From the NCBI RefSeq assembly GCF_014230085.1, contig NZ_JACHVB010000052.1:1-64000 (forward strand): a stretch of 64,000 nt of DNA, read 5' to 3'. Positions 12,913 through 47,318 of this stretch are shown here, piece after piece. The notes below the pieces were generated by a model. The model did not search any database and had not been told where the DNA came from. It worked only from the letters and a program-made list of their open reading frames with translations. A program made the position numbers and the translations under genes. How positions within the stretch are numbered: the first letter of the stretch is position 1; each line of letters starts with the position of its first letter. The DNA is from Ruficoccus amylovorans. Its GTDB lineage: Bacteria; Verrucomicrobiota; Verrucomicrobiia; Opitutales; Cerasicoccaceae.

Positions 12913-13161
12913 GAAGCGGGTGATTTAGACGGATTTTCCCGTCCGCGGAAAGGGAAAAGCACCGTTTCGGCAAAGATCGTGCTGCTCCAGGGGACGGCCA
13001 CCACTCATTTCAACTCAAGCGCCACAGGTCCAGCCTGCCAACCGTCCGATCAAGGCTGGACTATCAGTTTATTATTTCGTCCGCGCCCCCAACATAAGTT
13101 CAGGAACCATGTCTTGAAAAAAGGGTCTAGTATACCTTCTGCGCACACCGTCCATGTATCT

Positions 13162-18176: not shown

Positions 18177-19949
18177 TTAGGAAATCGTTGATACAGCGGC
18201 CTCTTTCGCCGCGGACAAACGGGCCTGCCGGGCTCCTACCCAGCGCATGAGCACTCCCGTCAGGGCCACCGATGAAGCCAGACAAAGGATGACGACCCGG
18301 CCGCCAAGCGGATTCGGAACCAGCAGCAGGAGAAAGAAGAAGCTGCTGATGCCGAGCACGAAATTGCCGAGAATTTTCAACTGGCTCAGGTCATTGGCCT
18401 TGCCCACCTCTTTCTCGAAATCTACCGGCAGGTGCATTTTCGTAAAAAACTCCTCCACCTTGGTGCGGTACGCCTGGCTGGCGCTTTTCCAGAACAGCAT
18501 CGAGGAAAGGAAGCCCGCCGTCCCACAGCCGACGTTGATAAACACCTTCTGCTGAAAGCTCCACTCCAGACCAAAGGCAAATGCCAGTAGCGAAGGCATC
18601 AACCCGCAAAAGACGGCAAACACGGCCGACCAGGCAGGCACGCGTTTGACGAACATCCCCAGTAGCATCGGCACCGACATGGGCGCCCCCAGCATCGACG
18701 CCAGCGCCAACATAAACTCGAACATCCCAGCCTTGCCCATGAGCGAGTAGTACAGCGCGATCCCCATCACGACCAGGCCGAGCGCCAGCGAGACCCATCG
18801 GCTCCAGACCAGTTCGCGCTCTGCCTCCATCGGCTCCAGCCCCATCGACTTGCGCAGCATCGGGAGGATGTCGCGGATCACGATGGCTGCGTTCCTGTTG
18901 ATACCCGAGTCCAGAGAACTCATTGTGGCCGAGAACATCGCCACCATGATTACCCCGGTCATGCCCAGCGGCAGCAGCTTGATGCTCGCCACCGCGTAGG
19001 CCGCTTCGGCGGGCTTGTTCAGCGAGGCCCCGGCGCTGAGCACATCGCTCTCGAACAGCAGACGCGCCGCCATTGGCGGAAGAAACCAGAAAACGCACCC
19101 CATCGCCATTAGCACAAAGGCCAGAAATGCCGCCTTGCGAGCCTCCCATCCGTCCTTGACCGAAAAGAAGCGCGGCCCCGAGACCATTGAGTTGCTCAGG
19201 ATCGACTGAGTCATGAAAATCCCCAGCGCCCATGTCAGCGTAAACTGCCCACCCGAAAATTCGCCTGTGCCATTAATCAGGTTGAAATCAGACTCCAGAC
19301 CAGCGTTACGGACCAGCTCTCCCATTCCGGTGAAACCTCCCATCGCCAGTAGCGCGAGCACCCCTACTATGATTGTGGTCGGCACCATAATCAGGCTCTG
19401 TACAAAGTCCGTCGCCATCACCGCCCAGCTTCCCCCACTGGTCGAATACGCCATCACGACCGCCCCCAGTACCAGGATAATGACCCAGATCGGGAAGCCG
19501 AAGACCGCGGCGGTAAAAATCGCCATCGCCCAAAGAACCAGGCCACTGCCAACGACTCCGAGGATCACCATCAGGAACGCATACAACTGCTGCGTCGTGC
19601 GCCCAAAACGCATTTCGATGACCTCCGGCCCCGTGATCGCCCGCAACTGCCGAAACCACGCCGCGAAAAAAAGAAATGCCAGAAACAGCCCGACGGAGTT
19701 GGCTATATAGATAGTCGCCACGCTCCATCCCGCCTCGAACGCTACCCCCGAGGCCCCCGTAAACGTGTAGGCGCTGATATTGGCCATAAAGACACTGGCC
19801 CCGACCAGCCACCAGGTACCACGACCACCACCACGGAAGAAATCGCTAATGTCGTGGTTAAAATTCTTAAACGCTGCACCGATCCCAAGCAGGTAGAGCA
19901 TATAGACTGCGATCACAGCGATCTCGATGTAGAGGCCCGAGGAATTCAT
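18177..19949 (-). CDS. Solute:sodium symporter (SSS family)
   Basis: 590 residues with about 14 hydrophobic segments. SSS hallmarks are HDISDFFRGGGRGTWWLVGASVFMANISAYTFTGASG (the gated first helix pair), RQLRAITGPEVIEMRFG, and MVAMFSATMSSLDSGINRNAAIVIRDI (the sodium-site helix 8 region). It should import a sugar or organic acid with Na+. The start MNSSGLY at 19949 was chosen because the predicted promoter (TTGACA 19985-19980, GGTTAT 19962-19957 with 17-bp spacing) would start RNA at about 19950, leaving no room for the upstream in-frame codons to 19985. The mRNA would be leaderless. Forms an operon with the 392-residue protein. SSS proteins beside AGE and lyase genes often carry oligo- or monosaccharides. 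Confidence 0.87.
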   Translation of the reverse strand: MNSSGLYIEIAVIAVYMLYLLGIGAAFKNFNHDISDFFRGGGRGTWWLVGASVFMANISAYTFTGASGVAFEAGWSVATIYIANSVGLFLAFLFFAAWFRQLRAITGPEVIEMRFGRTTQQLYAFLMVILGVVGSGLVLWAMAIFTAAVFGFPIWVIILVLGAVVMAYSTSGGSWAVMATDFVQSLIMVPTTIIVGVLALLAMGGFTGMGELVRNAGLESDFNLINGTGEFSGGQFTLTWALGIFMTQSILSNSMVSGPRFFSVKDGWEARKAAFLAFVLMAMGCVFWFLPPMAARLLFESDVLSAGASLNKPAEAAYAVASIKLLPLGMTGVIMVAMFSATMSSLDSGINRNAAIVIRDILPMLRKSMGLEPMEAERELVWSRWVSLALGLVVMGIALYYSLMGKAGMFEFMLALASMLGAPMSVPMLLGMFVKRVPAWSAVFAVFCGLMPSLLAFAFGLEWSFQQKVFINVGCGTAGFLSSMLFWKSASQAYRTKVEEFFTKMHLPVDFEKEVGKANDLSQLKILGNFVLGISSFFFLLLLVPNPLGGRVVILCLASSVALTGVLMRWVGARQARLSAAKEAAVSTIS

Positions 19950-19956
19950 TCCATTT

Positions 19957-19985
19957 ATAACCGTACAGTTACACACTGGTGTCAA
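19957..19985 (-). promoter_or_regulatory. Promoter of the symporter operon
   Basis: On the minus strand TTGACA (19985-19980), 17 bases, then GGTTAT (19962-19957). The -10 box is the second half of the TAACY-N4-RGTTA palindrome at 19958-19971, so a bound regulator would cover it. The expected RNA start coincides with the ATG at 19949. Confidence 0.55.
19958..19971. promoter_or_regulatory. TAACY-N4-RGTTA operator-like site (symporter)
   Basis: TAACCGTACAGTTA, an inverted repeat with half-sites TAACC and AGTTA and a 4-bp centre. It overlaps the symporter promoter. Matching sites: 24899, 31242, 36817 and 36948. Confidence 0.6.
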
Positions 19986-24878: not shown

Positions 24879-24908
24879 TTGACACTCCGCGCATTAAGTA
24901 ACTATATG
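24879..24908 (+). promoter_or_regulatory. Promoter of the six-gene catabolic operon
   Basis: TTGACA at 24879-24884 and TATATG at 24903-24908 (18-bp spacing; CTATAT with 17). The RNA should start at about 24914, next to the ATG at 24915, so the first gene is probably translated from a leaderless mRNA. The operator-like palindrome 24899-24912 covers the -10 box. Confidence 0.55.
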
Positions 24909-24912
24909 GTTA
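24899..24912. promoter_or_regulatory. TAACY-N4-RGTTA operator-like site (catabolic operon)
   Basis: TAACTATATGGTTA: half-sites TAACT and GGTTA around a 4-bp centre, placed on the -10 box of the operon promoter, 14 bases after TTGACA. Confidence 0.6.
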
Positions 24913-24914
24913 TT

Positions 24915-25958
24915 ATGTCATCATCCCAAACCCATGCACTACCATCCACGTCGGCCGAGGCCGATGCTTTCCTTTCGGAACCGAGCCCCGGACTCCTCGA
25001 AAGCCTTTCACAGCTGGAAGGCCCTGTAACCGTACTGGGTGCGGGCGGAAAAATGGGCCTTCACATCTGCCGCATGCTCAAGCGGAGTGGAGAATTACTC
25101 GGCAAGGAGATCGAAGTCACCGCCGTCTCACGCTTCCGCACTCTACGTGGGCGCGAGGTTTTCGAGCAGGCTGGCATAAAGACGGCCCCCTGTGAGCTTG
25201 AGGATGAAGTCGCGCTGGCAGGACTGGAAAACTCACCCAACATCATATTCATGGCGGGGGCAAAATTCGGCACCAGCGATCAGCCCGACTTGCTCAAACG
25301 CATGAACGCAGATCTCCCGATCAAAGCATCCAAGCGCTTCCCAGGGGCTAAAATTATCGTATTCTCGACCGGATGCGTCTATGCAATGGTCACTCCTGAA
25401 AGCGGTGGCTCACGCGAGAGCGACCCGACGGAACCTCCCGGCATTTACGCTCAATCGTGCCTGGACCGCGAAAAGGCATTCACAGCCGCGGCCTGCGACT
25501 TCGGAAGTCGCGTGTGTCTGGTTCGGCTCAATTATTCCACTGAGTTTCGTTACGGGGTGCTGGTGGATATTTGCCAGAAGGTCCTGCTCGGCGAACCGGT
25601 TTCGCTCGACATGGGCTGGGTCAATGTCATCTGGCAACGCGATGCAGTTGATCACATATTACGGACTTTCACTGTGGCTGACACATCCGCCAAGCCGCTT
25701 AATATAACCGGGTCCGGCATTCACTCAGTACGTGACATAGCCCTCGGCTTTGGAAAACTATTAAACAAACCGGTTACATTCTCAGGAAGCGAGGGCAACG
25801 TCGCCTGGCTCAACAATGCCAGCACCTCCCACAAGCTTTTCGGAGAACCGCCGACCTCTCTCGAAACCATGATGGAGTGGACGGCCTCCTGGGCTCTTCA
25901 AGGCGGAGAAATTTACAACAAGCCGACCGGCTTTGAGAAACGCGATGGCAAATTCTAA
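24915..25958 (+). CDS. NAD-dependent epimerase/dehydrogenase-like protein (extended SDR) with altered active site
   Basis: 347 residues. The Rossmann motif GPVTVLGAGGKMGLHICRML is at about 36-55, then NIIFMAGAKFG, the strand IIVFSTGCVYA (Ser151), and a region YAQSCLDREKAF. In extended SDR enzymes the last reads YxxxK; here the lysine position is Cys182 (Tyr178 kept), so normal catalysis is doubtful. The C-terminal half has the epimerase-family pattern (CLVRLNYSTEFRYGVLVDICQKVLLGEP, MGWVNVIWQRDAVDHIL). It may be a sugar-acid dehydrogenase or a lactone-forming step with changed chemistry. First gene of a tight operon; the start at 24915 follows from the predicted RNA start. Its stop overlaps the next gene by 14 bases. 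Confidence 0.7.
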   Translation: MSSSQTHALPSTSAEADAFLSEPSPGLLESLSQLEGPVTVLGAGGKMGLHICRMLKRSGELLGKEIEVTAVSRFRTLRGREVFEQAGIKTAPCELEDEVALAGLENSPNIIFMAGAKFGTSDQPDLLKRMNADLPIKASKRFPGAKIIVFSTGCVYAMVTPESGGSRESDPTEPPGIYAQSCLDREKAFTAAACDFGSRVCLVRLNYSTEFRYGVLVDICQKVLLGEPVSLDMGWVNVIWQRDAVDHILRTFTVADTSAKPLNITGSGIHSVRDIALGFGKLLNKPVTFSGSEGNVAWLNNASTSHKLFGEPPTSLETMMEWTASWALQGGEIYNKPTGFEKRDGKF

Positions 25959-27006
25959 ACGCCCTCTCATGGACATTCGCCGACACTTGCTGGCCGGGCA
26001 GGCAATCCCTGCCCTGCCCCTCGCCCTCAACACGGAACGTAAATGGTGCCGGAAGCACCAACGGGCTCTCATCCGCTACTATCTGGAATCGGGAACCGGT
26101 GGAATCGCTGTCGGCGTGCACTCGACGCAGTTTGAAATCCGCGAGCCCAGGTACGGACTTTTCGAGCCTCTGCTACGCTTTGCCTCAGAACAGATTGACG
26201 CGTATACCCGAGACAGCAGCAACGGCTTTATCAAAATAGCCGGGCTGTGCGGACAAACCGAGCAGGCTGTCAGCGAGGCCAAGCTGGCCGCGGACTGCGG
26301 CTACCACGCCGGATTGCTGAGTCTGGCAGCCATGAAGCACGCCTCGGAAGACGAGTTACTCGCGCACTGCGAAGCTGTCTCGAAGCACATTTCAATCATC
26401 GGTTTTTACCTTCAGTCTGCCGTCGGCGGCGCGCCGCTTCCTTATTCCTTCTGGAAGCGTTTCGCGATGATCGAAAACGTGGTAGCGATCAAGATGGCCC
26501 CCTTCAATCGCTACCAGACTATCGACGTGATTCGTGCCGTCTGCGAGAGCGGACGCTCGGACATCTCCCTGTACACCGGTAACGACGACAATATTATCGC
26601 AGACCTGGTAACGCCGTGGGACTTCGCCGGGCAGAAGGTTTTCATCCGTGGCGGGCTCCTCGGGCAATTCGGCGTATGGACCAGCAAGGCGACTGCCATG
26701 CTCAGGGAAATTCAGCGCGAACGCGCCCGAGGCCAACTCTCCCCTGAGTGGATGAGCCGCAACGCCGCCCTGACCGACGCCAACGCCGCCATCTTTGACG
26801 CCGCAAACAACTTTCGCGGCGTGCTCTGTGGCATCCACGAAGTGTTGCGCCGACAGGGACTGCTCGAAACCAACTATTGCCTCGACCCGAACGAACAGCT
26901 CTCGCCCGGACAGGCCGAGGAACTTGACCGTGTGTGCCGGGCTTATCCCTGGCTCACCGACGACGCTTTCGTCAAAGAAAACCTCCATCGCTGGCTCAGC
27001 GACTAG
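25945..27006 (+). CDS. DapA-family (dihydrodipicolinate synthase/KDG-aldolase-like) lyase
   Basis: 353 residues, a TIM barrel of the DHDPS/N-acetylneuraminate lyase superfamily. Visible landmarks are GGIAVGVHSTQFE (substrate loop), IKIAGLCGQTEQAVSEAKLAADCGYHAGLL, the conserved Tyr155 (IGFYLQS) and the Schiff-base lysine Lys183 (NVVAIKMAPF). It is longer than true DapA (about 290) by a C-terminal helical extension. Such enzymes cleave or dehydrate 2-keto-3-deoxy sugar acids to pyruvate and an aldehyde. A biosynthetic DapA would not be expected in this context, so a catabolic aldolase is inferred. It overlaps the upstream gene and sits 4 bp before the serine dehydratase genes. MDIRRHLL at 25969 is an alternative start. 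Confidence 0.8.
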   Translation: MANSKRPLMDIRRHLLAGQAIPALPLALNTERKWCRKHQRALIRYYLESGTGGIAVGVHSTQFEIREPRYGLFEPLLRFASEQIDAYTRDSSNGFIKIAGLCGQTEQAVSEAKLAADCGYHAGLLSLAAMKHASEDELLAHCEAVSKHISIIGFYLQSAVGGAPLPYSFWKRFAMIENVVAIKMAPFNRYQTIDVIRAVCESGRSDISLYTGNDDNIIADLVTPWDFAGQKVFIRGGLLGQFGVWTSKATAMLREIQRERARGQLSPEWMSRNAALTDANAAIFDAANNFRGVLCGIHEVLRRQGLLETNYCLDPNEQLSPGQAEELDRVCRAYPWLTDDAFVKENLHRWLSD

Positions 27007-27010
27007 AAAA

Positions 27011-27682
27011 ATGTCCAACTCCGCTTTTGGCATCATCGGACCCGTCATGATCGGTCCATCCAGCAGCCACACCGCCGGAGCCGTACGGCTCGGCCTGGTC
27101 GCACGCGCACTGTTGGGCGGAGCAGATCCGACCCGTGCCACGTTGGGGTTGCATGGCTCGTTTGCCGCCACCGGGCACGGACACGGCACACGGCTGGCAC
27201 TGATCGCGGGACTGCTCGGGATGGCCCCCGACGACGAGACCCTGGTCGAGAGCTTCACCCTCGCCCGCGCGCGCGGGCTGGACTACACCTTCGAGGAGGT
27301 AGACCTCGGAGAAGATTTCCACCCGAACGGGGCCAGCATCGACCTGGAATCCGCGAACGGCGAACGGCACCTGTTGCTTGGAGCATCGGTCGGCGGCGGG
27401 AGCATCAGCGTTCAGTCGGTGGACCGCTTTGATACACGACTCCACGGGGACTCACCCACCATTGTCCTGTGGCATCAGGACCGGATCGGCTACTTGGCCA
27501 CGCTCACCACGGCTCTGGCTAACGCGCAGGCCAATATCGCCTCCATTCACACCAGCCGCCATGTCCGCGGGCAGCAGGCGCTCACGACGGTCGAGCTCGA
27601 TGGCCCCCTTCCGGCAGGCACTCAGCATAGTCTTCAGCAAACACCGCAGACCCAACTCGTCCGATTCATTGATAAAGTCTAG
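27011..27682 (+). CDS. sdaAB: L-serine dehydratase, iron-sulfur type, beta subunit
   Basis: 223 residues. The N-terminus GIIGPVMIGPSSSHTAGAVRLGLVAR carries the substrate-binding GPSSSHT motif of the type 3/4 [4Fe-4S] serine dehydratase beta domain. GSFAATGHGHGTRLALIAGLLGM and the Gly-rich SVGGGSISV follow. The last 70 residues are an ACT domain (DRIGYLATLTTALANAQANIASIHTSRH). It is the partner of the alpha subunit encoded 7 bp downstream; in single-chain enzymes the two parts are fused. The standard reaction is Ser to pyruvate and ammonia, but in this operon it could act on an amino sugar acid. The ATG at 27011 is 4 bp after the previous stop; longer in-frame readings overlap that gene. Confidence 0.88.
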   Translation: MSNSAFGIIGPVMIGPSSSHTAGAVRLGLVARALLGGADPTRATLGLHGSFAATGHGHGTRLALIAGLLGMAPDDETLVESFTLARARGLDYTFEEVDLGEDFHPNGASIDLESANGERHLLLGASVGGGSISVQSVDRFDTRLHGDSPTIVLWHQDRIGYLATLTTALANAQANIASIHTSRHVRGQQALTTVELDGPLPAGTQHSLQQTPQTQLVRFIDKV

Positions 27683-27689
27683 CAAGACA

Positions 27690-28571
27690 ATGGACACCGA
27701 TTCCTCCAGTTACGATTTCAATACCGCCGCCGAGTTGCTCATCCTCTGCGAGAAGGAAGCCCTGAGCATCGCGGAAGTCGTCTTGCGCCGGGAATCCTTT
27801 GAGAGCGGCTCGAGCCGGGATGAACTCGTAAAAACCATGCGGGAGCGCTACCGCAAGATGAAGGACAGCATCCGCCGGGGAATCCAAATCGACAAACTCT
27901 CTGCCAGCCGTCTTTCCGGCGGCGACGCGGCCCGGCTGATGGCCTACGCCGAAAGCGACGCCCCACTCGGGGGCGCGGACTTCGCGCGCACGATGGCCTA
28001 CGGATTCGCGGTACTGGAGAGCAACGCTCAGTTCGGACGCATTGTGGCCACGCCCACCGCCGGATCGGCCGGCGTCGTGCCCGCCTGCCTCCTTCACCTC
28101 GAAGATCAGGGCCTGGACGAAGACACCGCCGTGAGCGCCTTGTTCACAGCGGCGGGGATCGGCCTCGTCATCGCGAACAACGCCTGCTTCTCCGGGGCCA
28201 GGGGCGGCTGCCAGGCGGAGATCGGAAGCGCCAGTTGCATGGCTGCTGCCGCCATCGTGGAAGCCCGGGGTGGCACTCCCCGGACCGCTCAAAGCGCAGC
28301 TTCCTTTGCCCTCATGAACACGCTCGGCCTCGTTTGCGACCCTATCGGCGGCTATGTCGAGGTCCCCTGTGTCAGCCGCAACGGGATGTTCGCCGTGCAC
28401 AGTATTCAAGCCGCCGTCATGGCCCTGGCCGGTTGCCGCTGCCTTGTTCCACTGGATGATGTCGTCATCGCCATGCGCGACATCGGACGCCGCATGCCGC
28501 GAGCCTTGAAGGAGACCTCGCAGGGTGGGCTGGCCACGACTCCCACTGGCCAGAGTTACATGCCTAAATAA
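27690..28571 (+). CDS. sdaAA: L-serine dehydratase, iron-sulfur type, alpha subunit
   Basis: 293 residues. The catalytic [4Fe-4S] subunit. VATPTAGSAGVVPACLL, then NNACFSGARGGCQAEIGSAS (with Cys166, Cys174 and Cys183), and LGLVCDPIGGYVEVPCVSRN (Cys216, Cys227) are the family's cluster and active-site blocks. The cluster is oxygen-sensitive in known members. The substrate is bound by the beta subunit's GPSSSHT motif. Length agrees with SdaAA of two-subunit enzymes. In its setting, between an aldolase and a deacylase, the enzyme more likely belongs to breakdown of an imported compound than to general serine turnover. A longer in-frame reading upstream overlaps sdaAB and was rejected. Confidence 0.9.
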   Translation: MDTDSSSYDFNTAAELLILCEKEALSIAEVVLRRESFESGSSRDELVKTMRERYRKMKDSIRRGIQIDKLSASRLSGGDAARLMAYAESDAPLGGADFARTMAYGFAVLESNAQFGRIVATPTAGSAGVVPACLLHLEDQGLDEDTAVSALFTAAGIGLVIANNACFSGARGGCQAEIGSASCMAAAAIVEARGGTPRTAQSAASFALMNTLGLVCDPIGGYVEVPCVSRNGMFAVHSIQAAVMALAGCRCLVPLDDVVIAMRDIGRRMPRALKETSQGGLATTPTGQSYMPK

Positions 28572-28583
28572 CAAGCAGCACCC

Positions 28584-29750
28584 ATGTCCGATAAAATCCC
28601 CAGCATCACCGAACTCTTATCGACGCTCGTGTCCTGCCCGAGCGTAAACCCCGGCGAGCGCCTGCACTGGGAATCGCCTTACGGCGAGGCACGACTCGCG
28701 CAGGTCTTGCAAGACCTGCTGCGGCCATGGGCCGACTCAATCGAGATCGACGAAGTCGTTCCCGGCCGCCCCAACCTGCGAGCGCTTTTCCGGGGTCGCG
28801 CCGACGGCCCCAAGCGGGCGCTGGAGGCCCATCTCGATACGGTGGACATCGACGGCATGAGCATTGAACCCTTCGAGCCTGAACTTAAGGCGGGCCGCCT
28901 TTATGGCCGCGGCTCTGCCGATACCAAAGGCCCCATGACCGCGATGCTCCTGGCCCTGATCCGCGCCAAGGCCAAAGGCATCAAACTCAACGGAGACTGG
29001 ACCTTTATCGCCACCTGCGATGAAGAGTTGGGGGCGCGCGGGGCGCGCTTTCTCATTGAACAGGGTTTCTGCTGCGACGGCATCATCGTGGCCGAACCGA
29101 CCGAACTGGAACTCATTGACGCGCACAAAGGAGTCGAACGCTACCGCGTCGAAATCACCGGCAAGGCCGCCCACAGCGCCTACCCCGAGTTGGGGCTTAA
29201 TGCGATCAGCGCGCTGGCGGACTTTATCGGTCGGCTCGAAGCCATGAGCTTCCCGTCAACCAGCAGGCCCGACGACGACACGCTCGGCCCCATCACCATG
29301 AGCGTAGGTGTTATCAGCGGCGGCGATCAGGTGAACCGCGTGCCGCAGACGGCGCACGCCGAAATCGACTTCCGCATCCCCCCTGGCGCCCCCGAAACCG
29401 CCATCGGGGAACTGCTGGCGCAGGCCGCACACTCGACGCGTCAAAGCCGTCCCGGCATTGAGATCCGCTGGGAGCAGACTCAGCACTACCCCGCCCTTCA
29501 CCCACAGCCCGACAGCGCATTTTCCGAGACCCTCTGGCAACTGGCGAAGGAGCATTTGAATGCCCGGAAATTTTCCCGTGTCCGCTACGCTACCAACGCC
29601 GGTTTTTACTCCGCTGCGGGTATCCCGAGCATCGTGTTCGGGCCCGGCTCGATTTCCGAGGCCCACACCGCCGCAGAATCCATTGAGATAGACGCCATCG
29701 AACAAGCCGCCTCGTTCCTCGAAAAACTCATCACCGTTCCGGCTCACTGA
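28584..29750 (+). CDS. M20-family metallo-deacylase/peptidase (ArgE/DapE-like)
   Basis: 388 residues. The di-zinc site is complete by motif: His83 and Asp85 (EAHLDTVD), Asp113 (RGSADTKG), the Glu pair 147/148 (TCDEELGARG), Glu171 (AEPTE) and a C-terminal His (SEAHTAAESIEI). A dimerisation lid (about 180-290, AHSAYPELGLNAI and GVISGGDQVNRVPQTAHAEIDFRIPPG) is present. Members remove acetyl, succinyl or aminoacyl groups from amino compounds in the cytoplasm. Lying right after serine dehydratase genes, it may free an N-acylated amino acid or amino sugar acid so that the dehydratase can act. Twelve bp after sdaAA and part of the same operon. Confidence 0.85.
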   Translation: MSDKIPSITELLSTLVSCPSVNPGERLHWESPYGEARLAQVLQDLLRPWADSIEIDEVVPGRPNLRALFRGRADGPKRALEAHLDTVDIDGMSIEPFEPELKAGRLYGRGSADTKGPMTAMLLALIRAKAKGIKLNGDWTFIATCDEELGARGARFLIEQGFCCDGIIVAEPTELELIDAHKGVERYRVEITGKAAHSAYPELGLNAISALADFIGRLEAMSFPSTSRPDDDTLGPITMSVGVISGGDQVNRVPQTAHAEIDFRIPPGAPETAIGELLAQAAHSTRQSRPGIEIRWEQTQHYPALHPQPDSAFSETLWQLAKEHLNARKFSRVRYATNAGFYSAAGIPSIVFGPGSISEAHTAAESIEIDAIEQAASFLEKLITVPAH

Positions 29751-29809
29751 ATCGGCCTCAACGCCAAAACACAAGTCAACATCGCCAACCAGGCACCGCC
29801 ATCAATACC

Positions 29810-31027
29810 ATGCAATCTTCATCCCCCTGCATAAATATCCCGACCGTCAGCGCCGACAGTCTTCCGCTCCTGCTCAGCTTCTGGCGCGAGCACCTGCACA
29901 CACATATTCTGCCGTTCTGGAAGCAGCACGCGATCGACCCGGACGGTGGACTCAACACCTGCATCCGCGACGACGGCAAGCTCATCAGCCGGGACAAATG
30001 GCTCTGGAGCCAGTGGCGCGCAGTCTGGGTTTTCAGCCGCCTCTACCGCCTGCATGGCCAAGATCCCCAGTGGCTGGAATTGGCCGAGTATATCGGGAAC
30101 TTCAGCCTGCGCCACGGCTGGGATGAAGACTTCGGCGGCTGGCGGCTGCTCGTTGACGCCGATGGGCGCGAAATCGAAGGCTGCAAGAGCATTTACGTAG
30201 ATGCCTTCGCCATTTATGCCCTTACGGAGTGGCACCTGGCCACCGGTAAAGAGTCCCTGCTCGCCCCGCTCCACCGGACCGCCGAACGGGTCCTTCTCCG
30301 CCTGGAACAACCTCATGAGCATATCCCGCACTACCCCTATCCAATCCCTGAGGGAAGCCGCGTCCACGGCATCCCCATGATGTTTTCCTATAAGCTCGGG
30401 CTGGCCGCTCACCACCTCGGCCATCAACACTATGCCGAAGCCTCGCAGGCCCTTTCTGATGAAGTCTGGAACGACTACTACGTCCCGGAAAGCGGGTTCA
30501 TGCTGGAGCGCGTATCTGCCAGCCAGACGCCACTCTCGCCCCCGCTCGGCACCGCGGTGGTCCCGGGTCACGTGATCGAAGACATGTGGTTCCAGATGGA
30601 GCTCAGCAGGCTCTTCCACCACGAAGAGCGTCTGGACCTCTGCTGCCAGACGATCCGGCGCCACCTGGAAGCCGGCTGGGACGAGCAGCACGGAGGCATC
30701 TTCCTCGCCATCGACGCCGGGGGCCACAAAGACATCGCCTGGTCATACGCCGACTACAAACTGTGGTGGCCACATACCGAGGCGCTCGTCGCACTCTTGG
30801 CCGCCTACGAGCACACCCGACAGGACTGGTGCCTGGAATGGTATCAGCGCGTCTTTGAATACACGCTCAACCACTACCCGAACGAGCAGCATGGCGAATG
30901 GACGCAGCGGCTGGATTGCCTGGGCAAACCCAGCAACGAGATTGTCGCCCTGCCCGTCAAAGACCCCTTCCACCTCCCCCGCGCGGCCATGACACAGATC
31001 GAACTCCTGGAACGCCTCTGTAACTAA
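29810..31027 (+). CDS. N-acylglucosamine 2-epimerase (AGE) family protein, copy 1
   Basis: 405 residues, (alpha/alpha)6 barrel. AGE-family motifs in order: KWLWSQWRAVWVFSRLY (about 63-80), the Trp/Gly-rich HGWDEDFGGWRLLVD, GCKSIYVDAFAIYALTEW, VVPGHVIEDMWFQMEL (histidine of the GH.IE motif), GWDEQHGGIFLAID, KLWWPHTEALVALLAAYE and PNEQHGEWTQRLD. The two conserved His and the WWPHTEA block are the usual catalytic residues. Members epimerise or isomerise sugars such as N-acylglucosamine, cellobiose or mannose. Last gene of the six-gene operon, 59 bp after the M20 gene. A second AGE protein is at 40009; the two differ clearly, so they probably handle different sugars. Confidence 0.88.
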   Translation: MQSSSPCINIPTVSADSLPLLLSFWREHLHTHILPFWKQHAIDPDGGLNTCIRDDGKLISRDKWLWSQWRAVWVFSRLYRLHGQDPQWLELAEYIGNFSLRHGWDEDFGGWRLLVDADGREIEGCKSIYVDAFAIYALTEWHLATGKESLLAPLHRTAERVLLRLEQPHEHIPHYPYPIPEGSRVHGIPMMFSYKLGLAAHHLGHQHYAEASQALSDEVWNDYYVPESGFMLERVSASQTPLSPPLGTAVVPGHVIEDMWFQMELSRLFHHEERLDLCCQTIRRHLEAGWDEQHGGIFLAIDAGGHKDIAWSYADYKLWWPHTEALVALLAAYEHTRQDWCLEWYQRVFEYTLNHYPNEQHGEWTQRLDCLGKPSNEIVALPVKDPFHLPRAAMTQIELLERLCN

Positions 31028-31073: not shown

Positions 31074-31241
31074 AGTGCAAGACGGCTCCTATCCGCGGAG
31101 AATGAGGCATCCTCAGGGATTCTCATACGCCGCAAGGTCGAACCAACCAGTGAACAATTGGTTTAAGGCGAGTTATCGGCTTGCCTGCAATCTACGCCTG
31201 TCATTAATGTTCTAATAGCAACAATAGAGCATTTACCCTAG

Positions 31242-31255
31242 TAACCTAAGAGTTA
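31242..31255. promoter_or_regulatory. TAACY-N4-RGTTA operator-like site (tetR)
   Basis: TAACCTAAGAGTTA, extended to the perfect outer pair GTAAC/GTTAC, ends 3 bases before the ATG of the TetR gene. Its place fits autorepression and is the main reason to link the motif with this regulator. Confidence 0.6.
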
Positions 31256-31258
31256 CCC

Positions 31259-31915
31259 ATGACACAAAAGGCCCAGAAAAGAATCAAACGCGATCCGGAA
31301 AGAACCCGCACCGCCTTGCTGAATGCCGGCATTGAGCTGTTCTCAAGCCGAGGCTATGACGGCGTATCTGTCGATGAAATAGTCGCTCACGCCGGTTTCA
31401 ACAAGCGCATGCTATATCACTACTTTGAAAACAAGGACGGCCTCTACGTCGAGGTGCTCCGACATGTCTTCGCCAAGCTCGAAGCCTGCGAGATAAAGAG
31501 CGTCGAAAATGCCTCCGACACGAAAGTGGCCATCAAGGAAATCCTTGCGCGGTACTTTGATTTCCTCCAGCAGAATCCCGATTTCGTAAACCTGCTACTC
31601 TGGGAAAACCTTAACCAGGCACGTTTTATCGACGCCCACCCTAACATTCTGAGCAAGGCCCCCATCCTCGAGAGGCTCGGCGAAATCATCCAGCAAGGCA
31701 TCAAACAAGGCGAGATCGACAAAAGTGTGGATGCGCGCCACCTGCTCATCCTGCTCATCGGAGTCTGCTTCATCTACTTTTCCAACCGCCACACGCTCAG
31801 ACACTCCTTTAACCTCGACCTTAATCGTCCCTCCATCCTGAACCAGGGGCTCCAACTCGCCCAAAACGTGATGATTAACGGGCTCATCAAACCCGATACT
31901 TCCGGCAAACGCTAA
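31259..31915 (+). CDS. TetR/AcrR-family transcriptional regulator
   Basis: 218 residues. The N-terminal helix-turn-helix is clear: RTRTALLNAGIELFSSRGYDGVSVDEIVAHAGFNKRMLYHYFENKDGLYVEVLRHVF (about 15-72). The C-terminal half is helical, as in the ligand-binding domain (YFDFLQQNPDFVNLLLWENL resembles the TetR_C group of long-chain regulators). It is a cytoplasmic dimeric repressor. The gene follows the six-gene operon by about 230 bp, has its own palindromic site at 31242-31255 directly before the ATG, and ends in a strong terminator. The same palindrome occurs at four other promoters in the window, so it is the leading candidate for control of the polysaccharide genes. The effector is unknown. 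Confidence 0.88.
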   Translation: MTQKAQKRIKRDPERTRTALLNAGIELFSSRGYDGVSVDEIVAHAGFNKRMLYHYFENKDGLYVEVLRHVFAKLEACEIKSVENASDTKVAIKEILARYFDFLQQNPDFVNLLLWENLNQARFIDAHPNILSKAPILERLGEIIQQGIKQGEIDKSVDARHLLILLIGVCFIYFSNRHTLRHSFNLDLNRPSILNQGLQLAQNVMINGLIKPDTSGKR

Positions 31916-32004: not shown

Positions 32005-35000
32005 TCATTCGGGGCGCAAGTCCAGGACCATATTTCCGTCAACCGTCCAGTCCACGGGCACAACGCACTCGACAAAACCGTTCGCGGAGGCAGCCAGCTT
32101 CCTCTCGGTGCCCCCCGCCGAAGCATACAGAACCGCCTTCTGCGCAACCGGAATCCGGATACCCACAGCCGCGTTAGACGAGAGTCGCCATTGGCCCTCA
32201 CCCATCTGCTTCAGTGTGGCCACATGGGGAATACGCGCCTGATCGCCGTCCTGTACCAGATAAAATTCGAGCTTCTCGCCAGATTTGAAAAGCCCTCCTT
32301 CGTGCGGATAGAATTTTTTCCGGTTCGGGTAAGATTCAACCACGGTCGAGCGGCTGCGGTCTCCAGCAGCGGCGACTTTTCGCCCGGTGTAGTAGCCCGT
32401 ATCGCGGTAACGCCCACCGAGAATTTCGTTCGGCCAGGTGCTCGTGACCGCACCATCCGCCTCAATCGTGTCAACCACCACGGTCGAGCTGACCATCCGT
32501 TGCGAGCCAAAATCGAGTACACTTCCTTTCGGGGAAGCACTGACTGCCTCAATCATGTAAGTGACATCCTGCAACGTGGCAGGTCCGGCTCGTCCCTTAT
32601 CCCCTGAGAACATAACCGGCTGGCCCGCCAGGATACGGCCGGTGGGCAGCGAGTCATCCAATACCACGCGATTATGGCGATCATCCGGAATCACCTCGAT
32701 CACTTTTGCCCGCCAATTCGGCTCGGGAAAAGTCAGACGAAAAGCACCCGCTTCAAGGAAGGTTCCCTCATGCAAGAGCATTTCCCGCACATCCCCATCC
32801 GGTCCGGTACGGACAAATCCGCGCGCCCCAACCAGGCGAACCTCACCGTCATCCAGCTTGCTGCGCTCGCTTTGCCCGGCCAACAAGGTGTCCGTACAGC
32901 CATTGTCCAGCGTGAGCCGAACGCCCATGCCCGCAGCGGGGTCCAACTCGATCCTCTCCGCCTCCAGCACCGGCCATTGACCGTCTTCGGCGACTTCCAC
33001 CAATGCGGCGAACTGGCTCTTCAGCGGCTCCGCCCCCGAGCGGCGGGCCACCACCATGCTATGGTAACGGTCCACTTCAGCAGCAGGATTGCGCGCGACG
33101 ATGGCTTCCTGCTCCTCGTTGTTGACGAAGGTCAGGCGCATGGTGTTCCTGCCGTCGATCAGGTCCCAGCTCGCCGACCAGTTATCATCCGTAACATCCT
33201 CCTTGACATCATAGATGAATCCGTAGCCGTTTTGCGGGGGCGGGTTCCAGGCGGAGTCGATGTTAATGGCCTCGCCCGGAATGCCGATGGGCCGAATGGT
33301 CCCACGTTTACCAGGGTCGAGACGTTCTCCCCAACTGCGACCGGGCACGTTGAAATCAGCATCGCGGTAGCGCGGATTCAACCCGGCCAGCGACCATACG
33401 CCAGGGATTTCCTCCGGCTCAATCCCATCTACGGCAAAGCCCTCGCCCGGACTCGCCTGGTCCAGCCACTGCCCCGTCCAGAAATAATCATGGGTGCGCC
33501 CACCTTCGGCGCGGAAGAAATCCAGGTAATAGAACTCCTCGTCGGAAACATCCACCATCCACAGCAAGCGACGGTACTCGCTCATATCGGGAGCAATGCG
33601 GTCCTGCCAAAGATACGGGTTCGACATTTCCACCAATTGTGCCGACAGCCCCATGTCCTTGGTCACCCAGCCTTGCAGGCTGGCCGGAGGGGCGTTCTTG
33701 GCCGGATAGTCCGGGGCCGGGAGATCTTCGTTCACCACCAGCGTCCAGTGCGAGGCGGGCTTGATCGCCCACCCGCGGTGAGCGGGACTGCCCGCCGCCG
33801 GGTAGCCGTAGATACCGGTCAGGTTCATTCCCTTTGCGTAGAGAATCAGGCCCAACTGGTCGTCGTGCCCGTGGCTGTAGTGCACGCTCCCGGAGAGAAA
33901 AGCCGCGCGGTGGTCCTCACCTTCGCCACTGCGCACGAGGGCAATCATCTTGGCGGGCAAGAGGTCGGAAGAATCCTGCAGGAGCGAGTCCTTCATCTCC
34001 GGCTCCTCATGCGGTCGCTCCGGCTCAATCCATTGGCTCATGCCCATCTCATAAACATTGCCCAGGGTCGGCTCGCTACGCACCTCTTCCGGCAGGCTCC
34101 AGTAGCGCTCGGAAATCTGCTCCTTCCACTCCTCGTTGTCCGTCTGCCAATACAACAGCCGGGCGAAGGAACACCACAGGCGGGGGTCCCACTCGCGCAC
34201 TTCGCCGGGGAGCACGAGACGGTCTTCCCACATGTCGCCGAAGGCGATCATGCGCCCGCTGGCCATCATGCGGTACTTCATGAGGAAGGCGGCCGAGTAC
34301 CAGCTCGGGTCGTTGCCAAACTTGAGCGCGAAGGGGTAATCCTCCGGCTTCGGGTAGAGCTGCGGGTCCGGGTAGTTGGAGGGATCGTAATTCGACAGCG
34401 GCAGCATCAGCGTGGCCGCGTAGTTCACCCCCACGCGCTCGTAGCCACCGGCATTTTCATAGTACTGTCCATCGCGGTTGAGCGTCTGTTCGAGCCAGAC
34501 GACAAGCACATCGATCCCCTCGCGAATCATCTCGGGATTACCGAAGAGAACGCCCTGCGCCAATTCGTTCGCGTAGAGAATCGTCGTGTGATTATAAAGC
34601 GTGTGACGGGTCTCCTTATAGTTCAGTTCGTAGACATCGAAGTACTGGTCACGTATTTTCTCGAACACCGTCCGCCCACTACCGTCTCCGGCGGACTGGG
34701 ACGCGCGGCTCACGTTCCCGAGCAAGTCGAGCGCGAAGACAGTGTTCAACGTCCTTGAGTTAGCATGATTCCCCGAGTAACACAGGAAGTTCTTGTTCTC
34801 CTTACCGTAGGAAAAGCCGTCGATCGCCCCTTGCTCGGGGGAGCGTTGAGCAACCAATGTCGCCAACTCGTCAAGGATTAACAAGGCCCGGTCAGCCACC
34901 GCCGGATCGCCACTGAGCATGTAGGCCAAAGACAGTGTATCGACAGCGTCATGCATCTGGTCGATGATCCAGCTGTTCCAAACGCCCTTGAAATAAAAAC

Positions 35001-35544
35001 GCTTCTGGTCCGATGGCCTCACCCAACCGTCGCCCGCGTCATAATACTCTTCACCGGGTCCAGCCGCGCCGTAAATATCCCCCGTGTACGGGGAGCGCAC
35101 CGTCCCCGGACGATCCAGGCTGCACATGCCCCCGCTCCGGGCCCACGATGGCCAGCTTTGTCCGGTCTTCGGATCTCCGGCATAGCCGACCGCCAGGACC
35201 GAATCGGCGGTTGGCACCAGTGCCCGGATTTCTTCGTCGCTCATGGCAAGCCACGGCTGCGCATTCTCAAAAATCTCCGCTGCCAGCAATTGTCCCCGCG
35301 TACTGTCGCGGGCGGTTTCGCGGACGGTTTCGATCCCCTCCGGGGTGTACGTCAGCCCCCGGCAGGGTGCAACGGGACGCTCCCCCGCAGCGGCGACTCT
35401 TAGGGAACTGGCCGCGGGAGCAGCGTCCCCGGCCCGCAGAGCGGGAGCGAGCACGCAGGCACTCAGCGTCAAAACGAAAAGACCTCCAACAAGGGGCAGG
35501 TAAGCAAAGGTTGGCTTCATAACAGCAAGAGGTTTAGTCATCAT
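32005..35544 (-). CDS. Large exported heparinase II/III-like polysaccharide lyase, paralogue 1
   Basis: 1179 residues. An N-terminal hydrophobic signal (MKPTFAYLPLVGGLFVLTLSACVLA, with a possible lipobox TLSAC) follows a short extension. Residues about 100-480 are helical, with conserved blocks (WARSGGMCSLDRPGT, FYFKGVWNSWIIDQMHDAVDTL, YNHTTILYANELAQGVLFGN) of an (alpha/alpha) toroid. The middle has the heparinase II/III beta-domain motif SVHYSHGHDDQLGLILYAKG. More beta domains follow. Such enzymes cleave acidic polysaccharides at uronic acids by beta-elimination. A clear paralogue lies at 53942-57367. The start overlaps the previous gene's stop (ATGATGA), so the two genes are translationally coupled. 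The lipid anchor is uncertain. Confidence 0.75.
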   Translation of the reverse strand: MMTKPLAVMKPTFAYLPLVGGLFVLTLSACVLAPALRAGDAAPAASSLRVAAAGERPVAPCRGLTYTPEGIETVRETARDSTRGQLLAAEIFENAQPWLAMSDEEIRALVPTADSVLAVGYAGDPKTGQSWPSWARSGGMCSLDRPGTVRSPYTGDIYGAAGPGEEYYDAGDGWVRPSDQKRFYFKGVWNSWIIDQMHDAVDTLSLAYMLSGDPAVADRALLILDELATLVAQRSPEQGAIDGFSYGKENKNFLCYSGNHANSRTLNTVFALDLLGNVSRASQSAGDGSGRTVFEKIRDQYFDVYELNYKETRHTLYNHTTILYANELAQGVLFGNPEMIREGIDVLVVWLEQTLNRDGQYYENAGGYERVGVNYAATLMLPLSNYDPSNYPDPQLYPKPEDYPFALKFGNDPSWYSAAFLMKYRMMASGRMIAFGDMWEDRLVLPGEVREWDPRLWCSFARLLYWQTDNEEWKEQISERYWSLPEEVRSEPTLGNVYEMGMSQWIEPERPHEEPEMKDSLLQDSSDLLPAKMIALVRSGEGEDHRAAFLSGSVHYSHGHDDQLGLILYAKGMNLTGIYGYPAAGSPAHRGWAIKPASHWTLVVNEDLPAPDYPAKNAPPASLQGWVTKDMGLSAQLVEMSNPYLWQDRIAPDMSEYRRLLWMVDVSDEEFYYLDFFRAEGGRTHDYFWTGQWLDQASPGEGFAVDGIEPEEIPGVWSLAGLNPRYRDADFNVPGRSWGERLDPGKRGTIRPIGIPGEAINIDSAWNPPPQNGYGFIYDVKEDVTDDNWSASWDLIDGRNTMRLTFVNNEEQEAIVARNPAAEVDRYHSMVVARRSGAEPLKSQFAALVEVAEDGQWPVLEAERIELDPAAGMGVRLTLDNGCTDTLLAGQSERSKLDDGEVRLVGARGFVRTGPDGDVREMLLHEGTFLEAGAFRLTFPEPNWRAKVIEVIPDDRHNRVVLDDSLPTGRILAGQPVMFSGDKGRAGPATLQDVTYMIEAVSASPKGSVLDFGSQRMVSSTVVVDTIEADGAVTSTWPNEILGGRYRDTGYYTGRKVAAAGDRSRSTVVESYPNRKKFYPHEGGLFKSGEKLEFYLVQDGDQARIPHVATLKQMGEGQWRLSSNAAVGIRIPVAQKAVLYASAGGTERKLAASANGFVECVVPVDWTVDGNMVLDLRPE

Positions 35545-36719
35545 TGAAACAATAGGATCAGCGCGGGGTCGTTCAGGAGCCATCGCCCCTCATCCGAGAT
35601 CGCACCAAGTGCCAAAAACGTCTGGCCGACCTTCACCGCGCCCAGTCCTGCTTTCGTAGTGAGCATGACCTGCATGTGGGCCGGAATACTCCGGGGCTTC
35701 TCAACGCCCGCGATGCTCACCGCAGGCACGCCCGCCTCAACGACAATTTCCCCTGCCACAATCTCTGGATAAGACGCCCACTCGGGAAGGCCTGAATCCT
35801 CATTCGACGATCCGGCGAGGACGAACATGGCACTCAGGCCCCCGCTTAGCTTATCACGCGGAACGACAACCGTCTGTCCCGATTCGAGATCGTCCACTGT
35901 ACCCGCACTCAGCGTATAAACCGTCGGTTCCTCGCCCGTCCAGCGCACCGTCATCGGCACCGTCTCTCCATCCAGTTCACCACTGCCGACAAAGAGCTTA
36001 AGCTCGCGGTCAATAAGGTGCACCTTTCCCTCGAATAACCGGTTTCCGCCGCGCGCCATCGGGGCATCGGCAACGTAGCCAGGTTTAACTTCGCGGATAT
36101 AGAGTTGCGCAACCCTCGTCATACGCCCGTCATCCAGCACCCCGGAGAAAGAAACCTTGTCACCTTTTTTCAAGATGCTGGCACTGACATCATCGTGGAT
36201 CAAAACCTGCACATCATCGGGAAAGACCACTGTAAAAATTGAATTCTCCGAATAGGCGCTCCAGACACCATCACGAAACCCCAACTTGCCACGCAGTTGA
36301 ATGGCACCGCCATCCCCAATCGACAGGTAGTCACCCCCTCGCGTGTACGTGCCCTTAAAAAGTCCAACGCGACCAGGAACGATCGTCCTGCCGTCCGCCG
36401 AGATGGTCCCGGCGATCTCCGCCGTATCGCCCCGCCTGATCTCTTGAGCGGTTCCTTCCCAACGGTAGTAGATATAATTCGGACGCGGAATTTCCACCGT
36501 CACATTCATCGCCTTCCCCTCATAAGAAGTCCTGCAGGTAAAGGTCTTCGCCTTCTCATCGACAGAAAGCACCGTACCGGAAAGCGACGTGCGGACACCC
36601 TCGCCCGCCATCGTCGTCGAACAAAATGGCAGAAGTAAAAACAGGCAAAACAGACCAGCTCCCAGGCAGATCACTTTCGTTAATGAACTCGGCACAGTTC
36701 GGAAAAATACTATTCGCAT
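35541..36719 (-). CDS. Exported protein of repeated OB-like beta domains
   Basis: 392 residues with a signal peptide (after MRIVFFRTVPSSLTK, the hydrophobic run VICLGAGLFCLFLLLPFCS). The mature part is almost all beta-strand pattern, with several segments that look alike: SGTVLSVDEKAKTFTCRT, GDTAEIAGTISADGRTIV, GDKVSFSGVLDDGRMTRVAQLYIRE, EGKVHLIDRELKLFVGSG. These suggest tandem OB-like or DUF5666-like modules. I recognise no catalytic motif. It is encoded directly upstream of, and overlapping with, the lyase gene, so it likely binds polysaccharide or assists the lyase at the cell surface. The ATG at 36719 was preferred to a GTG at 36794 because it places the signal peptide near the N-terminus. 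Confidence 0.65.
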   Translation of the reverse strand: MRIVFFRTVPSSLTKVICLGAGLFCLFLLLPFCSTTMAGEGVRTSLSGTVLSVDEKAKTFTCRTSYEGKAMNVTVEIPRPNYIYYRWEGTAQEIRRGDTAEIAGTISADGRTIVPGRVGLFKGTYTRGGDYLSIGDGGAIQLRGKLGFRDGVWSAYSENSIFTVVFPDDVQVLIHDDVSASILKKGDKVSFSGVLDDGRMTRVAQLYIREVKPGYVADAPMARGGNRLFEGKVHLIDRELKLFVGSGELDGETVPMTVRWTGEEPTVYTLSAGTVDDLESGQTVVVPRDKLSGGLSAMFVLAGSSNEDSGLPEWASYPEIVAGEIVVEAGVPAVSIAGVEKPRSIPAHMQVMLTTKAGLGAVKVGQTFLALGAISDEGRWLLNDPALILLFQ

Positions 36720-36816
36720 GAGGCAGGCAAAGATTCGTTTTTCACTGAGCTTTTCACACCACCGCCATCGTCTGACCACAGGGGGCAAGGACACGGGCTG
36801 GCGTCAGAACTAAAAA

Positions 36817-36830
36817 TAACCAAATGGTTA
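36817..36830. promoter_or_regulatory. TAACY-N4-RGTTA operator-like site (OB protein/lyase)
   Basis: TAACCAAATGGTTA, extended to ATAACC/GGTTAT. It lies 10 bases after a minus-strand TTGACA at 36846-36841, covering the likely -10 region for the operon 36719-32005. Confidence 0.6.
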
Positions 36831-36947
36831 TACAATAGCATGTCAACCGATTTTAATCAAAAACATGAATACAGGCAACAATACCTCAGGCTATTATCCA
36901 TTTTAAATAAAAGGCATCGACCTACTTTCTTGACACAACCCAAAATG

Positions 36948-36961
36948 TAACCAGTAGGTTA
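36948..36961. promoter_or_regulatory. TAACY-N4-RGTTA operator-like site (esterase)
   Basis: TAACCAGTAGGTTA, 12 bases after TTGACA (36930-36935) on the plus strand. The likely -10 is TAGGTT (36955-36960) inside the site. The esterase ATG is 75 bases further on. Confidence 0.6.
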
Positions 36962-37035
36962 TATATCGCCATTCAAGACTTAATCCAACGATAACTCCGT
37001 TGCGTAAAATCATCCTGCAACCAAAAGCTCAAGTC

Positions 37036-39611: not shown

Positions 39612-40008
39612 CGCTGACTGATGTTTAAAGTATCCGCCGGGGCAGCTATCGCATCGCTCCCGGGCCGAAGGCAGCAAGCCTCAAAAGATTGAAAACACCT
39701 CAAAACCTAGGCAACGATCCGCCGAAGACCAACCTTTATGGCGCAAGTAATCTCCAGGTTAATCGCCTCGCAACCATTCCCGCCCGTAAACAACAGAGTT
39801 CGAGCCCCATTAAAAGCGGTCCAGTTTTCAATACCGAAAATCTTCGCCGTGTTGCCAAACGTATCTTCGCAAAACAAAGATAAACGGTAAACCGACAATG
39901 GGCATTTTCTCCACCGCGCTCCGGTCTTGATGTTTCTTGTGGGCGCTTACGTCCAAACCGTTTTGGCTCATTGGCCCTAAGTTGTTTTTCAACCGAAAGA
40001 GGTCTATA
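39612..40008. other. Control region upstream of the second AGE gene
   Basis: No gene is seen. It holds motif GGTCCAGTTTT at 39818-39828 and a one-mismatch relative of the other operator, TAATCTCCAGGTTA (39748-39761). A good ribosome site AAAGAGG lies at 39996-40002. Confidence 0.5.
39818..39828 (+). promoter_or_regulatory. GGTCCAGTTTT motif, copy 1 (second AGE gene)
   Basis: The 11 bases occur at four intergenic places (39818, 42684, 60362 minus strand, 63068). This copy reads AAGCGGTCCAGTTTTC and lies 180 bases before the AGE start. Confidence 0.5.
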
Positions 40009-47298: not shown

Positions 47299-47318
47299 CA
47301 TTCCACCCTCTGTATTTT

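Follow-up and report, generated by a model that had tools for sequence, protein, structure and literature searches.

A known route from amino sugar acids to keto-deoxy acids uses an ammonia-lyase that depends on pyridoxal phosphate and acts on a phosphorylated substrate. In the oxidative hexuronate pathway, as family assignments have it, oxidation by a short-chain dehydrogenase/reductase (SDR) precedes the handling of a keto-deoxy acid, and sialic acid catabolism combines NanA, a member of the DapA superfamily, with a GlcNAc 2-epimerase of the AGE type on an N-acetyl sugar. Here we describe a six-gene operon of Ruficoccus amylovorans in a stretch of 64,000 nucleotides (contig NZ_JACHVB010000052.1, hereafter the window), in which genes for an SDR-like and a DapA-type protein are followed by those for a two-subunit iron-sulfur serine dehydratase (SdaAB and SdaAA), an M20 deacylase and an AGE-family epimerase. 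Each enzyme belongs to a known superfamily, and together they probably form part of a regulon for the breakdown of an amino sugar that stems from a polysaccharide. The mechanism that we prefer, with low confidence, is that the SDR and DapA-type proteins yield pyruvate and an (N-acetyl)serine C3 unit, which M20 would deacetylate and SdaAA/AB would deaminate. For the wider claim, that the operon is the end of a pathway for an N-acetylated amino sugar whatever the order of its steps, our confidence is slightly better than even.

The likeness to the ammonia-lyase route would lie in the deamination of an amino sugar acid to a keto-deoxy acid; the window differs in having an iron-sulfur serine dehydratase with a DapA-type protein and no kinase in the operon. 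With sialic acid catabolism it shares a DapA-superfamily lyase and an AGE-type epimerase, but the DapA-type protein is distant from the structures of both N-acetylneuraminate lyase (NAL) and dihydrodipicolinate synthase (DHDPS), at 14–20% identity, and the operon has neither a sialidase nor a sugar kinase. The keto-deoxy-glucarate dehydratase/decarboxylase belongs to the oxidative hexuronate pathway (PMC5114784). The window resembles that pathway in that a uronate-derived keto-deoxy acid would be handled after an oxidation, by an SDR as family assignments have it; it differs in that its SDR is without the lysine of the YxxxK motif, and in its added deaminating and deacylating enzymes.

Titles and abstract openings among the literature matches listed held no description of the SDR-DapA module, the six-gene combination or the regulon defined by its motif. 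Many SDR-DapA genes are at present annotated as "dihydrodipicolinate synthase family protein" or "NAD-dependent epimerase", and the operator-like motif and the serine branch described below narrow the candidate substrates and products for this large annotated gene set.

Operon layout and the conserved SDR-DapA core

Judged from open frames and their starts, the six genes lie on one strand at 24,915–31,027, separated by 4 to 59 nt except for a single overlap, and all six proteins score above the Pfam cut-offs for their assigned families:

24,915–25,958, + strand: extended-SDR-like NAD(P) protein, module core (PF01370 Epimerase, 35 bits; AlphaFold2 (AF2) pLDDT 94)
25,945–27,006, + strand: DapA/NAL-type aldolase (family assignment), module core (PF00701 DHDPS, 37 bits; AF2 pLDDT 95)
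27,011–27,682, + strand: SdaAB, the ACT-domain beta subunit of an iron-sulfur L-serine dehydratase (PF03315 SDH_beta and PF01842 ACT; TIGR00719)
27,690–28,571, + strand: SdaAA, alpha subunit (PF03313 SDH_alpha, 240 bits; TIGR00718)
28,584–29,750, + strand: M20 ArgE/DapE-type deacylase (PF01546, 118 bits, and PF07687)
29,810–31,027, + strand: AGE-family 2-epimerase (PF07221 GlcNAc_2-epim, 129 bits; 195 bits to PDB 2gz6)

The SDR and DapA-type genes overlap by 14 nt, and the following gaps measure 4 nt (DapA-type/SdaAB), 7 nt (SdaAB/SdaAA), 12 nt (SdaAA/M20) and 59 nt (M20/AGE). The identical order SDR-DapA-SdaAB-SdaAA-M20, followed by a Gfo/Idh-type gene, was found in a congeneric genome (G163), and DapA-SdaAB-SdaAA runs up to a contig end in G048, with SDR and TetR genes close by. 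This recurrence shows that the gene order is not due to chance. The six-gene unit and the families named in the first-pass annotation are thus confirmed by coordinates, by Pfam and NCBIfam and by the five-gene order in G163.

The distribution of the genes was determined in 111 non-redundant loci, a set without the window itself and locus L190, obtained from 114 scored loci by removing three near copies (DapA identity of at least 97%). In 106 of them an SDR gene of the same family is found no more than 10 kb from DapA, mostly immediately upstream, and neither gene occurs in any of 40 control regions. The pair is thus a conserved core, to which SdaAA/AB, M20 and AGE are recurrent add-ons, AGE being the least conserved part of the operon. 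DapA relatives with at least 49% identity were present in 84 of the 387 sampled genomes of the phylum, and those with at least 44% identity in records of Planctomycetes, Bacteroidetes, Spirochaetes, Firmicutes, Actinobacteria and Proteobacteria; the nearest named relatives are Opitutaceae.

Within 10 kb of DapA, the add-on families were Gfo/Idh (43 of 111 loci; 4 of 40 controls), TetR (40; 1), M20 (31; 0), Amidohydro_2 (19; 0), SSF symporter (18; 1), DegT (13; 0), heparinase-type lyase (12; 0), class-III aminotransferase (8; 0), GNAT (8; 1), hydroxyacid dehydrogenase (8; 3), SdaA (7; 0), mandelate-racemase type (6; 0) and AGE (5; 0). These counts come from home-made profiles and are lower bounds, above all for lyases, and several loci end near the SDR-DapA pair. 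M20, TetR, Gfo, Amidohydro_2, DegT, SSF and lyase were enriched at an uncorrected p < 0.05 that takes neither kinship nor multiple testing into account; against the same 40 controls, no significant enrichment was found for SdaA, AGE, GNAT, mandelate racemase, hydroxyacid dehydrogenase or class-III aminotransferase. The controls were chosen by position from genomes of the same phylum only, while the target loci include other phyla. Aldehyde dehydrogenase was considered as a constant neighbor and rejected, as it stands outside the 25 commonest of 94 families among 105 neighbor genes (120 selected ORFs shortened and edited by hand to 105 rows). The first-pass annotation had regarded homologous operons without lyase or AGE genes in unrelated amino-acid contexts as evidence against its own proposal. 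Operons without AGE are the rule, and no unrelated amino-acid context was seen among the inspected loci, whose genes were identified in part.

Active sites of the SDR and DapA-type proteins

The glycines of the Rossmann motif (Gly42, Gly45 and Gly48) and Tyr178 are present in all 98 SDR sequences aligned, and the window protein keeps Ser151 and Tyr178 of the SDR site. The lysine expected four residues after the tyrosine occurs in none of the 98, the position being Cys in 90 (Cys182 in the window), Val in 4, Ala in 3 and Thr in 1. Lys46 and Lys117 are invariant, and our guess is that they serve in place of the missing lysine. Cys182 was also considered as a catalytic nucleophile, a role weakened by the 8 of 98 sequences that carry Val, Ala or Thr there. 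Arg73, located after strand 2, is found in 97 of 98, which we take to be typical of NADP enzymes. The best structural match to the SDR model among those listed was TerB, an NADP oxidoreductase (Z 30.9, root-mean-square deviation (rmsd) 2.4, 291 aligned residues, 20% identity), followed in the same list by sugar-nucleotide epimerases with Z of 29.9 and below.

In the DapA-type protein, the Schiff-base Lys183 and Thr61 are conserved in 103 of 103 sequences and Tyr155 in 100. The position aligned with Arg138 of DHDPS (E. coli numbering), which presumably binds the carboxylate of the second substrate, is Val160 in the window and holds Val in 88, Ala in 12 and Cys in 3 of the 103. The model has the TIM-barrel fold of DHDPS (Z 33.1 to 1o5k, rmsd 2.2, 290 aligned residues). 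With these catalytic residues and this fold, and no equivalent of Arg138, the protein appears to be a DHDPS/NAL-superfamily aldolase or dehydratase rather than DHDPS proper. No NCBIfam model matched the window SDR or DapA-type protein at E 0.001. A role as a simple substitute for 2-keto-3-deoxy-6-phosphogluconate (KDPG) aldolase was rejected, since PF01081 is present in the genome itself (two matches) and in 286 of 387 genomes of the phylum.

The linked serine dehydratase

Both subunits exceed the equivalog cut-offs of NCBIfam for L-serine dehydratase, SdaAB with 193.8 bits to TIGR00719 (cut-off 161.2) and SdaAA with 288.4 bits to TIGR00718 (cut-off 243.2). Cys174, Cys216 and Cys227 of SdaAA, presumably the ligands of the iron-sulfur cluster, are present in 19 of 19 aligned sequences, and PDB 4rqo was matched over residues 2–283 of the alpha chain. 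In 11 homologues not linked to DapA, 26 residues are invariant, and the window SdaAA and seven other DapA-linked enzymes keep every one of them; the alignment contains no residue uniform in the eight linked enzymes yet absent from the 11 unlinked, six of which come from genomes holding DapA elsewhere. The unlinked alpha chains nearest to the window protein, at 59–66% identity, come from four genomes in which DapA was not matched. The window enzyme thus resembles the known two-subunit iron-sulfur L-serine dehydratase in scores, cysteines and structural match, and differs in that its genes stand in a sugar-type operon; in the protein itself no difference was found. SdaAA/AB most likely acts on L-serine and not on a sugar acid, and the scores, the invariant residues and the identity to unlinked chains speak against the earlier proposal that it deaminates a 2-amino sugar acid.

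In a tree of 113 DapA proteins, the nine SdaA-linked rows fall in three places (the window, G163 and G048; L115, L119, L128 and L190; and the Clostridia loci L067 and L076, where SdaA also lies within 10 kb of DapA), which requires at least four gains or losses. Two architectures are involved: the group of the window, G163 and G048 has the two-subunit form, and L067, L115, L119 and L190 fit a one-chain model. The cut-offs for L-serine ammonia-lyase were exceeded by the window pair, both L086 subunits, L067, L115, L119 and L190, in a scan that left out L076, L087 and L128. We argue from this association of two architectures without change in the protein that the pathway yields L-serine. Of the loci with unlinked SdaAA, L187 and L189 gave no hint of function from the five nearby genes scanned (GHMP kinase, peroxiredoxin, fucosidase and two without family), and SdaAB was not matched in L188.

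These results bear on an order of steps that extends the one in the first-pass annotation. In it, AGE would epimerize the sugar and the SDR oxidize C1; deacetylation by M20 would leave an L-configured amino sugar acid of the mannosaminate type, from which SdaAA/AB would remove water and ammonia. DapA would cleave the resulting 2-keto-3-deoxy acid to pyruvate and an aldehyde. This order gives all six genes a step and leaves no step unassigned, agrees with the N-acetyl-amino-sugar regulon in relatives described below, and finds a parallel in other sugar-acid dehydratases at SDR-DapA loci, namely UxuA in L096 and the mandelate-racemase type in 6 of 111 loci (representative below the Pfam cut-off). 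However, by sequence the linked dehydratases that were scanned are plain L-serine dehydratases with no common residue change, most SDR-DapA loci are without a profile-recognized dehydratase nearby, and M20 mostly occurs without an SdaA match. We consider the order unlikely. The SdaAA/AB sequence favors instead the preferred release of a serine-level unit, while completeness of steps favors the earlier order.

M20 deacylase and AGE epimerase

The M20 protein contains the motifs AHLD, ADTKG, CDEE, AEPTE and EAHT, which we take to have metal-binding roles. Its best NCBIfam matches are ArgE/DapE families, both below cut-off (TIGR01910, 214.4 against 217.6; TIGR01892, 212.7 against 297.7). Subfamilies differ between loci, being ArgE/DapE-like in the window and of the TIGR01891 amidohydrolase type in L190 and L067. 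L190 (G089) carries SDR-DapA-TetR-M20-SdaA in one run, with subfamilies other than those of the window operon; its M20 reaches 269 bits to DoeB2, below the cut-off of that model. Among the 31 M20 loci, 28 have no SdaA match nearby, a pattern that a serine product would predict, serine being usable by every cell. Conversely, M20 is found in three of the seven SdaA loci, among which the contig of L087 ends inside SdaA. The AGE protein keeps the PGH and FHLPRA motifs and scores above the Pfam family threshold, but reaches 237.5 bits to NCBIfam NF052547 against a cut-off of 600; it is a member of the AGE family whose score falls short of identity as an N-acyl-D-glucosamine 2-epimerase.

Of the 28 loci that carry SdaA or an aminotransferase, 15 have M20, compared with 16 of 83 others (Fisher p 0.001, uncorrected for kinship). 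Such company with nitrogen enzymes speaks against a reading in which one regulator controls two unlinked jobs, with SDR and DapA reducing and splitting a lyase-derived unsaturated uronate independently of KduI, and M20 and SdaAA/AB acting on an amino acid or on a substituent of the same polymer that carries serine. That reading also leaves AGE unexplained. It draws on the lyases near DapA (12 of 111 loci), found at operator-like sites as well, on the conserved Arg73 of the SDR with its presumed NADP preference, and on the lack of a KduI match in the genome, which we count in favor of the preferred pathway too. Overall, we regard the two-job arrangement as distinctly improbable.

Operator-like motif and probable regulon

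Many loci of the Opitutales type carry an operator-like palindrome, GTAACY-N4-RGTTAC, where the SDR gene starts. Sites with up to one mismatch were detected in 16 of 106 SDR start regions, compared with 2 of 106 random stretches from the same loci, and were confined to the order or class of the window or to Opitutaceae records. The motif was not found in L115, L119, L128, L190 and L067, a result that says nothing on those lineages. The window contains four sites with up to one mismatch (19,957, 24,898, 31,241 and 36,947), where 0.5 are expected. The sites and the genes behind them are as follows:

24,898–24,913: operator-like site GTAACTATATGGTTAT, directly before the SDR start
31,241–31,256: operator-like site GTAACCTAAGAGTTAC, perfect, just upstream of the tetR start
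19,957–19,972: operator-like site, 8 bp upstream of the probable ATG (19,949) of the SSF symporter
36,947–36,962: operator-like site GTAACCAGTAGGTTAT, in the promoter region between the divergent lyase pair and esterase
36,816–36,831: second palindrome ATAACCAAATGGTTAT in the same lyase-esterase intergenic region, with 3 mismatches to the 18-base pattern
31,259–31,915, + strand: TetR regulator, presumed regulator of the regulon (PF00440, PF17938; homologues near DapA in 40 of 111 loci)
18,177–19,949, − strand: SSF sodium-solute symporter, presumably responsible for uptake in the regulon, with an operator-like site at its start (PF00474, 137 bits)
32,005–35,583, − strand: large heparinase II/III-like lyase, presumed substrate supplier (PF07940, 27 bits, cut-off 24)
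35,541–36,794, − strand: 417-aa protein matched by neither Pfam nor NCBIfam, with its gene end overlapping the lyase gene
37,000–38,418, + strand: AXE1-type acetyl esterase behind operator-like sites (PF05448, 148 bits)

The operon, tetR, the symporter, the lyase pair and the esterase probably form one regulon, and from position and recurrence we infer that TetR binds the operator-like sites. The 417-aa protein, behind the same sites as the lyase, is a possible new partner of it. Across the genome of the window, the motif with up to one mismatch occurs 8 times against 21 for a reversed-pattern control, so that only the clustering of four sites in the window counts, and not the four outside.

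Eleven of 13 relatives contain exact sites, G169 and G075 being the exceptions; over the 13 genomes there are 22 such sites, compared with 6 for the reversed pattern. Away from SDR-DapA, they lie in stretches with DegT in G342, G354, G010, G143, G160 and G088, five of which also contain Amidohydro_2; a heparinase-type lyase starts right behind the site in G342, G354 and G088 and is about 7 kb off in G010. One more exact site, in G048 (C111), has nothing fitting among its surrounding genes. In G075 (L090/L231), one-mismatch sites precede DegT, a Gfo/Idh gene and a heparinase-type lyase, and another precedes an acetyl-CoA synthetase gene adjoining a GH20 hexosaminidase gene. This combination of GH20 and acetate activation favors a substrate of the N-acetylhexosamine type. 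The G075 sites, around L090:858–6354 and 12375–15456, are the best hint to the substrate class.

The sole blastp match of the window lyase among the compared locus ORFs was a lyase of 1026 aa in L090 (23% over 515 residues, E 3e-8), which also starts at a one-mismatch operator-like site. The window lyase was considered as an orthologue of the lyases at other SDR-DapA loci, and this was rejected given that single remote match.

An earlier proposal that the lyase and esterase supply the substrate under a shared operator agrees with the sites at 24,898, 31,241, 36,947 and 36,816 as far as the operator is concerned, the sites being putative. The motif at the lyase, esterase and symporter, GH20 with acetyl-CoA synthetase in G075 and M20 in 31 of 111 loci support the feed from a polysaccharide and the N-acyl substrate, and the idea of an N-acetyl amino sugar is strengthened. 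Of the first-pass proposal that an N-acylated amino sugar acid is broken down, the polysaccharide-fed unit and the N-acylated amino compound are supported, and the action of SdaAA/AB on a sugar acid is not. The common motif, the carbohydrate-type regulon of relatives and the AGE gene within the operon all argue against a peptide or amino-acid salvage operon unrelated to sugars, in which M20 would be a dipeptidase and the serine dehydratase a housekeeping enzyme. SdaAA is the sole SDH_alpha match in the 4.5-Mb genome (rated 98% complete) and may also serve general serine breakdown, as a salvage role would have it, yet we judge this explanation very improbable.

Proposed pathway

The operon would be the intracellular end of a probably TetR-controlled route for a polysaccharide-derived N-acetylated amino sugar, perhaps an aminouronic acid or an amino-sugar acid. 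A heparinase-type lyase would release the substrate and the SSF symporter import it. AGE may invert C2 of the 2-acetamido sugar to suit enzymes for L-amino acids, and the SDR may carry out one redox or isomerization step. By family and context, the DapA-type enzyme would cleave a 2-keto-3-deoxy acid through Schiff-base Lys183 to pyruvate and an (N-acetyl)serine-level C3 unit. M20 would then strip the acetyl group, and SdaAA/AB, as an ordinary iron-sulfur L-serine dehydratase, would convert L-serine to pyruvate and ammonia. In Fischer projection, C2 of a D-gluco 2-amino sugar would give D-serine when the carboxylate derives from C1, and L-serine when it derives from C3. AGE could thus set the configuration of the serine, which would explain why it is optional.

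Several observations weigh against this pathway. An N-acetylserine product needs a second redox step to which no separate enzyme is assigned, and the reaction of the SDR is uncertain given that its catalytic lysine is absent. The genome has two KDPG-aldolase-family matches, and the window lyase bears a remote likeness to other lyases of the regulon (23% over 515 residues). AGE occurs near DapA at 5 of 111 loci and was not matched in the 20-kb stretch at the operon of the closest relative (G163), and no M20 match was within reach at the SdaA loci L115, L119 and L128. Of the 28 genomes of the phylum that hold both SdaA and DapA, 8 have the two within 10 kb of each other (counted by hand, with G037 and G043 near copies and the G048 entry from a separate neighborhood listing), which speaks for the pathway, and the other 20 have them apart, which speaks against it. 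SdaA is near DapA in 7 of 111 loci, and its enrichment over the controls, calculated before near copies were removed (8 of 114 against 0 of 40), was not significant (p 0.08).

A broader and more speculative extension, which we hold to be rather unlikely, is that SDR-DapA is an unnamed catabolic module of many bacterial phyla that converts 2-substituted sugar acids to pyruvate and a C3 compound, giving N-acetylserine from N-acetylated amino substrates, with the SDR working by an undescribed mechanism that dispenses with its usual lysine. If this were true, the deacylase and serine dehydratase would finish a path that leads straight from the carbon of amino sugars to two pyruvates.

Other loci and neighboring genes

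In four Alphaproteobacterial loci (L080, L082, L057 and L058), SDR and DapA occur with a GNAT acetyltransferase and TetR, and no lyase was recognized there; the annotated records of L080 and L082 also show ABC transporter genes. The amine may be acetylated first at these loci. In L067, L072 and L076, from metagenome-assembled genomes of Clostridia/Ruminococcus, two of them from deer guts, SDR-DapA is accompanied by a lyase, M20, TetR and hydroxyacid dehydrogenase. Their lyase is related to heparinase II (1.9e-109 for L067), and SdaA is present in two of the three.

Downstream of the esterase, the window contains a second AGE-family epimerase (PF07221) at 39,937–41,220 (+ strand), preceded only by a weak operator-like site (39,746, 2 mismatches). 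A weak glucuronyl-esterase-like protein is encoded at 38,505–39,677 (− strand) and a protein with a LacI-type sugar-binding domain at 41,314–42,555 (− strand). A glycine-betaine-type ABC transporter (ATPase, permease and OpuAC binding protein) at 44,570–48,233 (+ strand) presumably serves osmoprotection and is unrelated to the regulon.

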